Assembly (NCBI RefSeq): GCF_010907035.1
Contig: NZ_QUMK01000018.1
Span: 1 to 64,000 of the forward strand
Source: Rhodopseudomonas sp. BR0M22
GTDB taxonomy: Bacteria; Pseudomonadota; Alphaproteobacteria; Rhizobiales; Xanthobacteraceae
Direction of reading: 5' to 3'
DNA length: 64,000 bases
The position numbers were made by a program, and so were the translations under genes. This document shows positions 20,030-30,575 of this stretch, one piece after another (the stretch's first letter is position 1; each line of letters starts with the position of its first letter). The notes beneath the pieces were generated by a model. The model worked only from the letters and a program-made list of their open reading frames with translations, did no database searches and had not been told where the DNA came from.

Positions 20030-20323
20030 TCATTCGGAACGAGTGGGATCGCGTCTTGCGGTGTTGCGGACGCTGAGGATGACGACTTCATCCTTGGCTT
20101 CGTCCACCTTGTGAAAGATCACGAACGGATAGCGGACCACGGATAGCGCACGGACGGTCGTCAGATCGGTCTTGTGGCCGGCCAGAGGAAACTCGCCCAA
20201 GAGGCGAGTTCGCTCCCAAATCAGGTTCGCAACCGCTCGGGCGGCGGATGCGTTGCGCTCAGCAATGAACGATAGGATCTCGTCGAGTTCGTGGACCGCG
20301 TTCTCGGACCAGCGAACCTTCAT
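20030..20323 (-). CDS. ParE/RelE-family toxin
   Basis: The 97-residue basic protein has the ParE fold signature: MKVRWSENAVHELDEILSFIAERNASAARAV at the start, then GHKTDLTTVRALSVVRYPFVIFHKV, and VVILSVRNTARRDP at the end. ParE toxins poison DNA gyrase and RelE relatives cut mRNA; the sequence is closer to ParE. It is encoded second in a two-gene unit, its ATG overlapping the antitoxin stop (TCAT at 20320-20323). Both genes sit between ispG and the antiporter gene. Confidence 0.87.
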   Translation of the reverse strand: MKVRWSENAVHELDEILSFIAERNASAARAVANLIWERTRLLGEFPLAGHKTDLTTVRALSVVRYPFVIFHKVDEAKDEVVILSVRNTARRDPTRSE

Positions 20324-22409: not shown

Positions 22410-22453
22410 GTAATTATGCTTTTGGCAATACTCCCCGCGTTTTGTTCAAGGTT

Positions 22454-24163
22454 ATGGGGGTAGTCTCGGTCATCAGAACGGTTGATCTGTTGGAGCCACC
22501 GGCGTGCGGCAACGCGCCGGGGGCTGCGGACGATCACGACCTGTCGCAGGGCAAAGCTCGGCTGACGCTGGCGGCGTTCATGGCGATCGATATCGGGCTC
22601 GCGCTGATCTCGCCGGAGGGCGAGATCGTGATGACCAATCCGACGTTCGATCTCGCCTTTGGTACGATTCCGTCCAAGCAGCTGCTGTCGCGGTTCGGCT
22701 TCGACCCCAGCTACGACGGCGGCAAGGCGTCGCGCCCGATCATTTTCCCGGACGAACGGATCTACTGGATCGACATCACGGGATTTCCCGACGGCTGGCT
22801 GATCAGCGCCGCCGATATCAGCGAGCGCCTGCGCCAGGGCATCGCCGGTGTCGAGCTGTCGCGCATCGATCGGCTCACCCAATTGGCGAACCGCCTGGTG
22901 TTTCACGAGCGGCTCGCCGATCTGCTGACGCAGCCGGCGGACGTTCGTTGCGACGCCGCGGTGCTGACCATCGATCTCGATCGCTTCAAGGCGATCAACG
23001 ACACGCTCGGGCGCACCATCGGCGATGCGCTGCTGTGTCTGGTGGCCAAGCGCATCAGCTCGGCGCTGGCGCCGAGCGACGTGCTGGCCCGGCTCGACGC
23101 CGACGAGTTCGGCGTGATCCAGATGGGGCGAGATCAGCCGGAAGCCTCGGTGACCCTGGCCAAACGTCTGGTCGACTTGCTCAGCCGGCCGTATCTGCTC
23201 GAAGGCCAGCTCATCAATGTCAGTGCTTTCGTCGGCATCGCGCTGCTCGACGACGCCGACATCGACGTCGACGGGGTGCTGAAGAACGCCGATTTGGCGC
23301 TGCATCGCGCCAAGCAGGAACGCTACGCCGGATATCGCGTGTTCGAATCCGCGATGGACGAGAGCATGCGGGCGCGGCGGGCGCTGGAGACCGATCTGCG
23401 CCGCGCTCTGGCGCTGCGCGAGTTCTCGCTGGTGTATCAGCCGCAGGTCAATCTGCAGAGCCGCCGGGTGGCCGGCTTCGAGGCGTTGCTGCGCTGGCGC
23501 TGCCCGACGCGCGGTCCGGTGTCGCCGCTCGATTTCATTCCGATTGCGGAAGAAACCGGGATCATCGGTCCGATCGGCGAATGGGTGCTGCGCACCGCCT
23601 GCCGGGATGCTGCAAGCTGGCCGGGCGACTACATGGTCGCGGTCAACATTTCGGCGATCCAGTTTGCCAACCGGTCGCTGGTGGCGACCGTGGTGTCGGC
23701 GCTCGCCGACAGCGGGCTCGATCCGCGGCGACTGGAGCTCGAGATCACCGAAAGCGTGATGCTCGATTCGCGAGGAAATGCGCTCGGCGTGCTGCAGCAG
23801 CTTCGCGGACTGGGTGTCCGGGTATCGCTCGACGATTTCGGAACCGGCTATTCGTCGCTCGGCTATCTGCGCAGCTTTCCGTTCGACAAGATCAAGATCG
23901 ATCAGTCGTTTGTGCGCGAAGCCTCCGAGGATCCCGGTAACCGCGCGATCGTCCGCGCAATCGCCTCGCTCGGCGCCAGCCTTGGCATGGCGACGGTTGC
24001 CGAAGGGGTCGAAACCGAAGATCAGCTCGCGCGGGTCGCAGCCGACGGCTGCACCGACGTGCAGGGCTATCTGATCAGCCGGCCGATCCCTCCGGGAGAG
24101 ATCGAGCATTTTCTCGCCGAGAGCCGCAACGTGATCGACGCGGCGACGGAAGTCAGTCTCTGA
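22454..24163 (+). CDS. papA: EAL c-di-GMP phosphodiesterase with degenerate GGDEF (PapA type)
   Basis: The 569-residue protein has a short PAS-like N-terminal region, a GGDEF domain whose active-site motif reads DADEF (in ARLDADEFGVI), so cyclase activity is probably lost, and an EAL domain with all key residues: FEALLRW, VNISAIQF, LEITESV, LDDFGTGYSS, KIKIDQSFV, AEGVET and QGYLISRP. It should hydrolyse cyclic di-GMP. The BLUF gene follows after 15 bases. The arrangement matches the R. palustris PapA-PapB pair, in which blue light acting on PapB raises PapA activity; the match is from memory of that system. Confidence 0.85.
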   Translation: MGVVSVIRTVDLLEPPACGNAPGAADDHDLSQGKARLTLAAFMAIDIGLALISPEGEIVMTNPTFDLAFGTIPSKQLLSRFGFDPSYDGGKASRPIIFPDERIYWIDITGFPDGWLISAADISERLRQGIAGVELSRIDRLTQLANRLVFHERLADLLTQPADVRCDAAVLTIDLDRFKAINDTLGRTIGDALLCLVAKRISSALAPSDVLARLDADEFGVIQMGRDQPEASVTLAKRLVDLLSRPYLLEGQLINVSAFVGIALLDDADIDVDGVLKNADLALHRAKQERYAGYRVFESAMDESMRARRALETDLRRALALREFSLVYQPQVNLQSRRVAGFEALLRWRCPTRGPVSPLDFIPIAEETGIIGPIGEWVLRTACRDAASWPGDYMVAVNISAIQFANRSLVATVVSALADSGLDPRRLELEITESVMLDSRGNALGVLQQLRGLGVRVSLDDFGTGYSSLGYLRSFPFDKIKIDQSFVREASEDPGNRAIVRAIASLGASLGMATVAEGVETEDQLARVAADGCTDVQGYLISRPIPPGEIEHFLAESRNVIDAATEVSL

Positions 24164-24178
24164 CCGGGAGCATCGCAG

Positions 24179-24622
24179 ATGTCGAGCGAGCTGTATCGCT
24201 GCGTGTACTACAGTAGAAACCTGATTGCCGGAGGGCCGGCGCGAATCGCCGAGGAGATCGAGTCGATCCTGGCGGCCGCGCGCCGCAACAACCCGCGGCT
24301 CTCGATCACCGGCGCCTTGCTGTTCAACCGCGGTCTTTTCGCCCAGGTGCTCGAAGGGCCGTGCGAGTCGGTGGAAACGCTGTTCGAAAAGATCCTGCGC
24401 GACGAGCGCCACGGCGACATTCAGGTGCTCGCTTTCACCGCCTCGTCCGGGCGGCTGTTCAGCAACTGGTCGATGGCGTTTCTCGGCCGCTCGCGCGAGG
24501 ACGAAAACCTGTTCGGTCATATCGGCCGGCAGACCGGGTTCAGTACCGAGCGGATCGCGGGCGATCGTCTGCTCGAGATCGTCCGCCATCTCGCTTACGA
24601 AGAAGAAGCTCGCGCGGCCTGA
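24179..24622 (+). CDS. papB: BLUF-domain blue-light receptor (PapB type)
   Basis: The 147-residue protein is one BLUF domain (residues 4-97) plus a short helical C-terminal extension. Flavin-site residues line up with AppA: Y10 in RCVYYS, N38 in RNNPRLSITGAL, Q56 in LFAQVLEG, and W97/M99 in SNWSMAF. All are present, so it should bind FAD and photocycle. It has no output domain, so it must signal through a partner; the EAL protein encoded just upstream in the same operon is the obvious one. Confidence 0.9.
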   Translation: MSSELYRCVYYSRNLIAGGPARIAEEIESILAAARRNNPRLSITGALLFNRGLFAQVLEGPCESVETLFEKILRDERHGDIQVLAFTASSGRLFSNWSMAFLGRSREDENLFGHIGRQTGFSTERIAGDRLLEIVRHLAYEEEARAA

Positions 24623-28829: not shown

Positions 28830-30575
28830 GTGTCGTCCGCCGTTCCTGCGCCCCGCCCATCGACCGCGCAGATCGCGAGCGATCTTTTTCCGTCGTCGAT
28901 CCTGTCGCTGCTCGGGCAAGCGGCCTTCGTGTGGGATCTGGCCACCGACGCGTTGGCCTGGACCGGGGCGGTCGAGGATCTGTTTCAAGACATTCCGGCG
29001 TCGACGCTGGCCACCGGAGCCAGCTTTTCGACGCTGCTCGAGCCATCGCGGAGCGTTCGTTCCGACGCGCTGCTGAACGCCGCTGCGGCCGTAGGACCCG
29101 GCTGCGTGCCGTACCGGATCGAGTATGGCATCCGTGTTTCCACCGCCGCGCCGGTTTGCTGGATCGAAGAAACCGGGGTTTGGTTCGCCGGTCCCGATGG
29201 CCGTCCGTCGCGTGTTCAGGGCATCGTTCGCATCAACAACGAGCGGCATGCCTGGGACGAGCAGCTCCTGAAATTGTCGCAGCACGATCCCCTGACAGGC
29301 GAGCTCAACCGCGCTCATCTGATCGCGGCGCTCGCCGAGGCGATTGAAGAGTCCGCGCGGTTTCGCACCAGCCTGTCGTTCATGCTGGTCGGCATCGACC
29401 ATTTGGCGCGGGTCAACGATTCGTTCGGATTCGACGTCGCCGACGAAGTCATCTCGACGATCGCCGGGCGGATCCGCAGCCGGCTGCGTGCCGGCGATCA
29501 GCTCGGTCGGTTCTCTGGCAACAAATTCGGATTGGTTCTGAAGAACTGCTCCATCGACGATGCGCAAATCGCGGTGGGGCGATTTCTCGCGGCGGTCGGT
29601 GGCGAGATCGTGCCGACGCGGTCCGGCCCTGTGTCGGCCACCGTGTCGATCGGCGCGGTGAGCGCGCCGCGTCACGCGCGCAATGCCGAGGAAGCGATCA
29701 ACCGCGCCCAGGAGGCGCTGGCCGCCGCCAAGCATCGCCGCAGCGGCTCGTTTTCGATGTGGCGACCGAACGTCGAGCGCGACACGCAGCGCCGGGTCAA
29801 CATCCGCGTCACCGACGAGATCGTTGCCGCGTTGAATGAGCGGCGCATTGTGCTGGCCTACGAGCCCGTCGTCTCGGCGTCGTCCCGAGAGCCTGCCTTC
29901 TACGAGTGCTTGGTGCGGATGAGGACCGACGACGGTCAGGTTCTGCTCGCGCCCGATATCGTCCCGGTGGCCGAGCGATTAGGGTTGATCCGGCTGGTCG
30001 ATCATCGTGTGCTGGAGCTGGTGGTGGCCGAGCTGTCCGCCGCTCCGGACGTCTCGCTCAGCCTCAACATCTCGCCCGATACCACGATAGATCCCGACTG
30101 GTGGGCGGGGATCGAATCGCTGATGCTTGCGCATCCCAGCCTCGCGCAGCGCTTGATCGTCGAGATCACCGAGACCGTGGCGATTCCCGACCTCGACGAA
30201 GTCCGCGGGTTCGTCAACCGGCTCAAGAGTCTCGGCGCCAAGATCGCGATCGACGATTTCGGCGCGGGCTACACCTCGTTCCGCAATCTGCGCGCGCTCG
30301 GGGTCGATATCGTCAAGATCGACGGTGCCTTCGTGCAGAACATCGCGCGCTCGGCCGATGACCGTGCCTTCGTACAGACGCTGATCGATCTGGCACGACG
30401 GCTCGGTATCAAGACCGTGGCCGAATGGGTGCAAGACGAAGAATCCGCGCAGCTGTTGCGCGACTGGGGATGCGACTACATCCAGGGACGGTTGATCGGA
30501 CTGGCGTCGCAGCGTCGGCCGTGGCCGATCGCCGCCGCAGCGGCTGCGAGCCTCGCCGGTCAAGCGGTCTATTAG
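28830..30575 (+). CDS. PAS-GGDEF-EAL protein with degenerate GGDEF and variant EAL
   Basis: The 581-residue protein has a PAS-like N-terminal region (about 25-140), a GGDEF domain whose signature is SGNKF (in RFSGNKFGLVL), so it is not expected to make c-di-GMP, and an EAL domain where EAL reads ECL. The EAL metal and catalytic positions are largely kept: E in YECLVRM, SLNIS, VEITETV, IDDFGAGYTS, VKID, the first E of AEWVQ, and IQGRL. AEWVQ departs from AEGVE. It could be a weak phosphodiesterase or a c-di-GMP sensor. GTG start with GAGGC upstream. Confidence 0.85.
   Translation: MSSAVPAPRPSTAQIASDLFPSSILSLLGQAAFVWDLATDALAWTGAVEDLFQDIPASTLATGASFSTLLEPSRSVRSDALLNAAAAVGPGCVPYRIEYGIRVSTAAPVCWIEETGVWFAGPDGRPSRVQGIVRINNERHAWDEQLLKLSQHDPLTGELNRAHLIAALAEAIEESARFRTSLSFMLVGIDHLARVNDSFGFDVADEVISTIAGRIRSRLRAGDQLGRFSGNKFGLVLKNCSIDDAQIAVGRFLAAVGGEIVPTRSGPVSATVSIGAVSAPRHARNAEEAINRAQEALAAAKHRRSGSFSMWRPNVERDTQRRVNIRVTDEIVAALNERRIVLAYEPVVSASSREPAFYECLVRMRTDDGQVLLAPDIVPVAERLGLIRLVDHRVLELVVAELSAAPDVSLSLNISPDTTIDPDWWAGIESLMLAHPSLAQRLIVEITETVAIPDLDEVRGFVNRLKSLGAKIAIDDFGAGYTSFRNLRALGVDIVKIDGAFVQNIARSADDRAFVQTLIDLARRLGIKTVAEWVQDEESAQLLRDWGCDYIQGRLIGLASQRRPWPIAAAAAASLAGQAVY

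Follow-up and report, generated by a model that had tools for sequence, protein, structure and literature searches.

The two adjacent genes described here are highly likely to form a papA-papB module, in which blue light acting via PapB would control the phosphodiesterase activity of PapA, and in which the GGDEF domain of PapA and its predicted PAS domain would be regulatory. They were analyzed in the window, i.e., the whole stretch of 64,000 nucleotides under study (contig C69 of genome G000; 5.29 Mb, 159 contigs). According to an excerpt of a review, the published system responds positively to blue light, with PapB as the regulator and PapA as the phosphodiesterase; the two proteins form a heterotetramer, the signal passes through the C-terminal helices of the BLUF protein, and the effect of light is the activation of PapA (PMC8846402). 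The R. palustris system has also been linked to the inhibition of biofilm in an excerpt of another paper (PMC4844311). By analogy, PapA and PapB of the window would behave like the R. palustris pair, and the roles of the GGDEF and PAS domains are those that we infer below. The kind of pair is already known; the present analysis adds the predicted PAS domain, the extent of the pairing, and a natural series of GGDEF states.

The features of the locus are summarized in Table 1. The initial annotation had placed a BLUF gene 15 nt after an EAL gene, and this arrangement was borne out (22454-24163 and 24179-24622). Both frames are open: papA runs from an ATG at 22454 to a TGA at 24161-24163, and papB runs from an ATG at 24179 to a stop codon that ends at 24622. 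The two genes share one reading frame, and the BLUF and EAL domains belong to separate polypeptides, with the TGA stop and the 15-nt spacer between them. The translation of papA may start instead at a TTG at 22442, which would add four residues; the ATG at 22454 is kept in the frames of the orthologues. Among the matches listed, no NCBIfam equivalog was above its cut-off for PapA or PapB, and a promoter and terminator scan at the locus gave nothing informative.

Table 1. Positions of the papA-papB genes and of their domains in the window.
Feature	Position	Strand	Evidence
papA orthologue, PAS-GGDEF(degenerate)-EAL c-di-GMP phosphodiesterase, 569 aa	22454..24163	+	ORF, Pfam, orthologues
PAS domain (predicted), PapA residues ~27-122	22532..22819	+	predicted fold, orthologue Pfam matches
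GGDEF domain, PapA residues 138-289, motif DADEF	22865..23320	+	Pfam E 3.5e-34
EAL domain, PapA residues 314-544	23393..24085	+	Pfam E 3.5e-73
Spacer, papA stop to papB start, 15 nt	24164..24178	+	sequence
papB orthologue, stand-alone BLUF protein, 147 aa	24179..24622	+	ORF, Pfam
BLUF domain, PapB residues 5-100	within 24179..24622	+	Pfam E 5.7e-27
C-terminal helical tail (predicted), PapB residues 101-147	within 24179..24622	+	prediction

Two other genes of the window were also recorded. A second GGDEF-EAL protein is encoded 4.2 kb downstream of papB (28830-30575, plus strand); both of its motifs are degenerate (SGNKF for GGDEF and ECL for EAL), and on these residues the product is likely a non-catalytic c-di-GMP-related protein. 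A gene of this type is also a neighbor of papA-papB in loci L046 and L054. A small ORF on the minus strand (20030-20323) matched the Pfam family of the ParE toxin of parDE systems (E = 1.8e-10).

The locus is very probably the papA-papB pair known from purple bacteria, the published system having been compared by description. Its match to R. palustris PapA-PapB, proposed in the initial annotation, is supported by the organism, by synteny in 14 of the 16 genomes of the genus, and by the uniqueness of the pair. In these 14 genomes, papA followed by papB occupies the same conserved place, and in all 14 a polyprenyl (GGPP) synthase gene lies downstream and an IspG (GcpE family) gene and/or a Na+/H+ exchanger gene lies upstream. 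The BLUF genes of the genus were found at 25 places, comprising the 14 pairs and 11 loci without an EAL gene; at the latter, about 4 kb on each side was inspected for most, and about 0.8 kb upstream for L068. Among the loci examined, the pair was the sole case of neighboring BLUF and EAL genes in the genus, and it is therefore the only candidate for papA-papB. The R. palustris system was described by Kanazawa et al. in 2010, and its papA and papB genes are reported to be adjacent. The window genome contains a second PapB-class BLUF gene (L083 3959-4435, minus strand, contig C132), the product of which is 51% identical; it was considered as the real papB, but its neighbor is a LysR-type regulator gene and no EAL gene was found within 4 kb of it, so that this option was rejected. 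Several genomes of the genus share this second BLUF locus.

PapB has the sequence expected of a complete sensor. The flavin-site residues named in the initial annotation (Y10, N38, Q56, and W97) are all there, and the Pfam matches agree with its description of PapB as a stand-alone BLUF protein without an output domain; at 147 aa, the protein is short. These four residues and M99 are kept in all 49 of the extracted paired PapB proteins. The window PapB is 93% identical over residues 1-138 to PapB of R. palustris strain XCP, which is the nearest named match of the window genome. A sequence search returned no solved PapB structure, the nearest being Slr1694/PixD (E = 1.2e-15). To model papA and papB jointly, the TGA was read as W to give a single chain (56 alignment rows, 7 paired); this is a modeling device, and biological read-through is not claimed. 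The AlphaFold model of the joint chain had a mean pLDDT of 85.3 and a pTM of 0.59, with confident single domains and a PapB tail of low confidence, in which the prediction gave helices for residues 688-694 and 701-721 of the chain (PapB about 113-119 and 126-146) in a block with pLDDT 51-62 from residue 681. The output consisted of confidence and secondary structure only, and hence is silent on the PapA-PapB interface. One of the two main branches of the genus has a poorly conserved PapB tail: among its six genomes, the mean identity was 44% for the tail (residues 101-147) and 71% for the core (residues 1-100), and in the window's branch it was 88% and 85%, respectively. The PapB genes of G002 and G012, which had been suspected to be pseudogenes with an in-frame stop, simply encode shorter proteins (140-141 aa), and the suspicion was rejected. 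In seven members of family f42 (L094, L095, L096, L144, L146, L147, and L151), PapB is 120-230 aa longer than usual, with total lengths of 265-378 aa. The extension is probably a coiled coil as judged by eye, these papB genes are in tandem with papA, and no Pfam family was above the cut-off in the extensions of the four proteins scanned.

We next describe how far the pairing extends. PapB searches covered 61 relatives, the genomes of the genus (16), order (397), family (296), and class (385), four further families (11, 20, 149, and 18 genomes), and named genome contigs (11 loci). The 121 BLUF loci examined are a selection consisting mostly of the better-scoring matches, and some of them lie on short contigs. 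A locus was regarded as paired when a PapA/EAL hit of ≥ 200 bits occurred on the same strand within 500 nt upstream, and BLUF relatives were called close at ≥ 112 bits against PapB and remote below 112 bits. A PapA-type gene was directly upstream on the same strand in 50 of the 121 loci, and pairing was found in 48 of the 63 close relatives, whereas it was found in 2 of the 58 remote ones. In 46 of the 49 extracted pairs, the papB start falls in an interval from 8 nt upstream to 58 nt downstream of the papA stop. Chance adjacency is negligible, because the window genome has only 18 EAL matches. The pair occurred in at least 15 of the 397 genomes of the order, a lower bound drawn from the better-scoring matches, so its distribution is scattered and not universal; in the 385 genomes of the class, the window's own PapB was the only PapB-class match at 1e-20. 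In a plasmid collection, 160 of the 72,556 records had a PapB match, and plasmid-borne pairs were found in Rhizobium (two records, papA being broken in one), Neorhizobium, Sinorhizobium, Aureimonas, and Skermanella; a phage search with PapB gave two weak hits. On plasmid pSM-1 of Skermanella mucosa (L126 2338-6771), papA-papB is followed directly by the bacteriochlorophyll genes bchE and bchJ. At L053, the PapA-like gene upstream of the BLUF gene is on the opposite strand. At L136 and L137, distant BLUF genes lie within about 120 nt after a gene 28-29% similar to a PapA, possibly representing another BLUF-GGDEF/EAL arrangement. The distances among PapA and among PapB proteins were correlated in a mirror-tree comparison of 48 pairs (r = 0.80, with 0 of 2000 permutations as high), which is no proof of interaction because the correlation mostly reflects shared ancestry.

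PapA and PapB are not inseparable, because papA stands alone in G007, G006 has neither gene, and 15 of the 63 close BLUF relatives, including 11 from this genus, lack a PapA gene beside them. In G007, a papA of 569 aa (L156 1402-3111) is present in the conserved place, flanked by the exchanger gene and by the DUF1345 and GGPP synthase genes, with no adjacent papB. Its product is 65% identical to the window PapA over residues 31-557, and has the motif DSDEF and intact EAL motifs. Here, papB is cleanly gone, because the papA stop runs right up to the end of the DUF1345 gene, which is on the opposite strand, and no papB lies there; one orphan PapB-class BLUF gene (L067) is retained elsewhere in the genome. 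In G006, no BLUF match was found and a close papA was likewise absent, the best match reaching 50% without the N-terminal part. Elsewhere, papA is broken beside a full-length papB in L124 and L131 (Rhizobium sp. CC-CFT758 and G578), and the pair is apparently broken in Skermanella rosea (L139); the module thus decays in some lineages.

The orphan genes bear on the possibility, which we consider unlikely, that PapA is served in trans by several PapB-type sensors, the orphan BLUF paralogues of the genus also docking on it. Candidates for such a role are available in the orphan of the window genome, in the two orphan PapB-class BLUF genes in each of G003, G004, G010, and G015, and in G007, which lost the neighboring papB and kept papA and one orphan. 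However, 8 of the 14 genomes of the genus that have the pair have no orphan BLUF. The tails of the orphans (residues 101-147) also share only 31% identity with the tails of the window's branch, a divergence that says little because paired PapB proteins from other branches reach just 35-39%. It is quite improbable that papA and papB are merely co-transcribed, with the target of PapB elsewhere and PapA ruled by PAS and GTP. The persistence of papA without papB in G007, that of PapB-class proteins without papA, and the predicted PAS input of PapA itself would fit such a situation, but the pairing persists across the order and on plasmids, and a PapA-PapB complex is described in the review excerpt (PMC8846402).

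Regarding the enzyme, the initial annotation described the phosphodiesterase motifs of PapA as complete, and this was confirmed: the catalytic residues checked were all there (E343, N398, E430, E433, D460, D461, K481, E517, E520, and Q537) and were identical in all 48 full PapA proteins. In a sequence search, PapA matched solved GGDEF-EAL proteins. PapA is also predicted to carry an N-terminal PAS domain that the initial annotation overlooked, and it is described here as a PAS-GGDEF-EAL protein because of this predicted fold at its N-terminus. Residues 1-135 of the window PapA had no Pfam family match at E up to 1. The Pfam family table for the 48 PapA proteins was without positions, and the scan was repeated on the N-termini alone; at the same limit, 21 orthologue N-termini matched PAS_7 in 15 cases, PAS_4 in 11, and PAS_8 in 10, the best being PAS_8 at 8.5e-6. 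More distant PapA relatives reach PAS_7 at 5.3e-11 (L094 residues 50-159); when four such relatives were scanned individually, one of them, L126, gave no PAS match. An AlphaFold model of residues 1-135 built with the 21 orthologues (mean pLDDT 79.0, pTM 0.66) showed the strand and helix order of a PAS domain. Solved PAS domains were among its best Foldseek matches, and VIA-align superposed it on the PAS domain of FlrB (7yrt) with a Z of 10.7 and an rmsd of 2.1 over 94 residues. Heme-binding, flavin-binding, and other PAS domains were all among the structural matches. With a longer PapA model, Foldseek placed PA0861 (PAS-GGDEF-EAL) and PA0575 (GGDEF-EAL) among the best matches. Every PapA seen in the genus is a GGDEF-EAL protein with an N-terminus that can be aligned to the predicted PAS domain.

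The GGDEF motif of the window PapA reads DADEF, as previously noted (residues 215-219). Both motif glycines are replaced (D215 and A216), the metal-binding aspartate of the motif and its glutamate are kept, and the I-site arginine is absent (A206). The protein thus lacks the intact GG(D/E)EF that marks a bifunctional cyclase/phosphodiesterase. It keeps D174, N182, D191, and D217, which correspond to metal- and guanine-binding positions of PleD. R187 and Y291 stand in place of the usual H and R, and these changes may weaken GTP binding. A broken cyclase motif combined with kept guanine and metal contacts is the pattern of the GTP-switched type, and by analogy it would fit a domain that binds GTP or serves for docking but has no cyclase activity.

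The relatives show a range of states of this domain. The Pfam GGDEF domain is retained in all 48 full PapA proteins, from which L124 and L131 were left out because their papA frames are broken; of the 48, 25 have an intact motif and 23 a broken one. An I-site arginine was found in 15 of the 25 intact-motif proteins, in contrast to 3 of the 23 broken-motif ones. On a maximum-likelihood tree of PapA, there were at least seven changes between the intact and broken states. The 14 PapA proteins of the genus formed one branch of 16 rows with those of G020 and G451 (support 100/100), in which all motifs are broken (DADEF, EADEF, HGDEF, EGDKF, EADKF, and YGDQF); other lineages have GVDEF, DADEF, DDGKF, GGDAF (two), DGASF, and DGATF. 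Because the tree, which included the motif columns, was rooted at its midpoint and its deepest forks are weak, loss rather than gain of the cyclase motif is a direction that we infer. With G007 (DSDEF) added to the 14, the motif is broken in every PapA found in the genus. The proposal of the initial annotation that the GGDEF domain is a regulatory or docking module and not a cyclase is thus supported by broken motifs in all PapA proteins of the genus and in other lineages, together with the retention of the domain in all 48 proteins. None of the 48 has lost the phosphodiesterase half. The simplest reading would be that selection maintains the phosphodiesterase output and treats the cyclase output as optional, with repeated losses; the cyclase half looks dispensable, and it was apparently lost before this genus radiated. 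It is barely conceivable that the window PapA still makes c-di-GMP and that light toggles synthesis against hydrolysis, because the aspartate and glutamate kept in DADEF and the intact motifs of 25 of the 48 relatives are set against D215 and A216 in place of the glycines, the absence of the usual H and of the I-site R, and the different ways in which other PapA proteins of the genus break the motif (EADEF, EGDKF, YGDQF, and DSDEF).

Under the papA-papB interpretation, PapB would bind flavin and sense blue light, and its C-terminal helices would signal to PapA within a protein complex, altering the rate at which the EAL domain hydrolyzes c-di-GMP. The GGDEF domain would no longer make c-di-GMP and would most likely be an allosteric and dimerization module between the PAS and EAL domains, possibly still binding GTP; the PAS domain would be a second input to PapA, and the two domains would set its responsiveness.

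We compared this arrangement with known systems. PapA-PapB of R. palustris comes from the same genus and shares the EAL phosphodiesterase with a short BLUF protein, the complete phosphodiesterase and flavin sites, and a PapB tail predicted here to be helical. However, the review excerpt names only an EAL domain for PapA, which it calls a "solo EAL" protein (PMC8846402), whereas the PapA proteins of the genus are GGDEF-EAL proteins with a predicted PAS domain, and the description fits none of those seen. In those portions of the PapA/PapB literature that were consulted, we found no description of a GGDEF or PAS domain in PapA. In BlrP1 of Klebsiella and YcgF of E. coli, a BLUF domain likewise governs an EAL domain, but the two are in one chain, whereas in the window there are two proteins and the enzyme also has GGDEF and PAS domains; the EAL domain of YcgF is given as inactive in an excerpt (PMC3989770). 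PA0861/RbdA, PA0575, CC3396, and PdeB are of the same GGDEF-EAL type, PA0861 being also PAS-GGDEF-EAL like PapA, but their partner or ligand is GTP or HubP and not a BLUF protein, and GTP binding by the window protein is hypothetical. Excerpts of two papers describe an inactive GGDEF domain that switches the EAL domain on by binding GTP or a partner in CC3396, RbdA, RmcA, and PdeB (PMC9061725; PMC3989770); one of them shows GTP binding to the inactive domain for PdeB and cites it for CC3396, RbdA, and RmcA (PMC9061725).

A broader history can be put forward tentatively, as a possibility that falls short of being probable. The pair would be an old two-gene light switch distributed over the Hyphomicrobiales, the commoner form of which both makes and destroys c-di-GMP; the known version would belong to a branch that lost the cyclase, in one of at least seven such breakings, while retaining the inactive domain in an allosteric role. 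Relatives with an intact GGDEF would be bifunctional under blue light, and orphan BLUF proteins may act on PapA in trans in G007 and elsewhere. The role of the GGDEF domain becomes testable, since there are natural relatives with an intact motif, with variously broken motifs, and with PapB removed; G007, the variable PapB tails, and the f42 extensions are natural variants for testing the coupling between PapA and PapB. The papA-papB pair is also a natural two-protein optogenetic handle on c-di-GMP, and if the intact relatives are indeed bifunctional under light, one sensor would steer both the synthesis and the breakdown of the same messenger.
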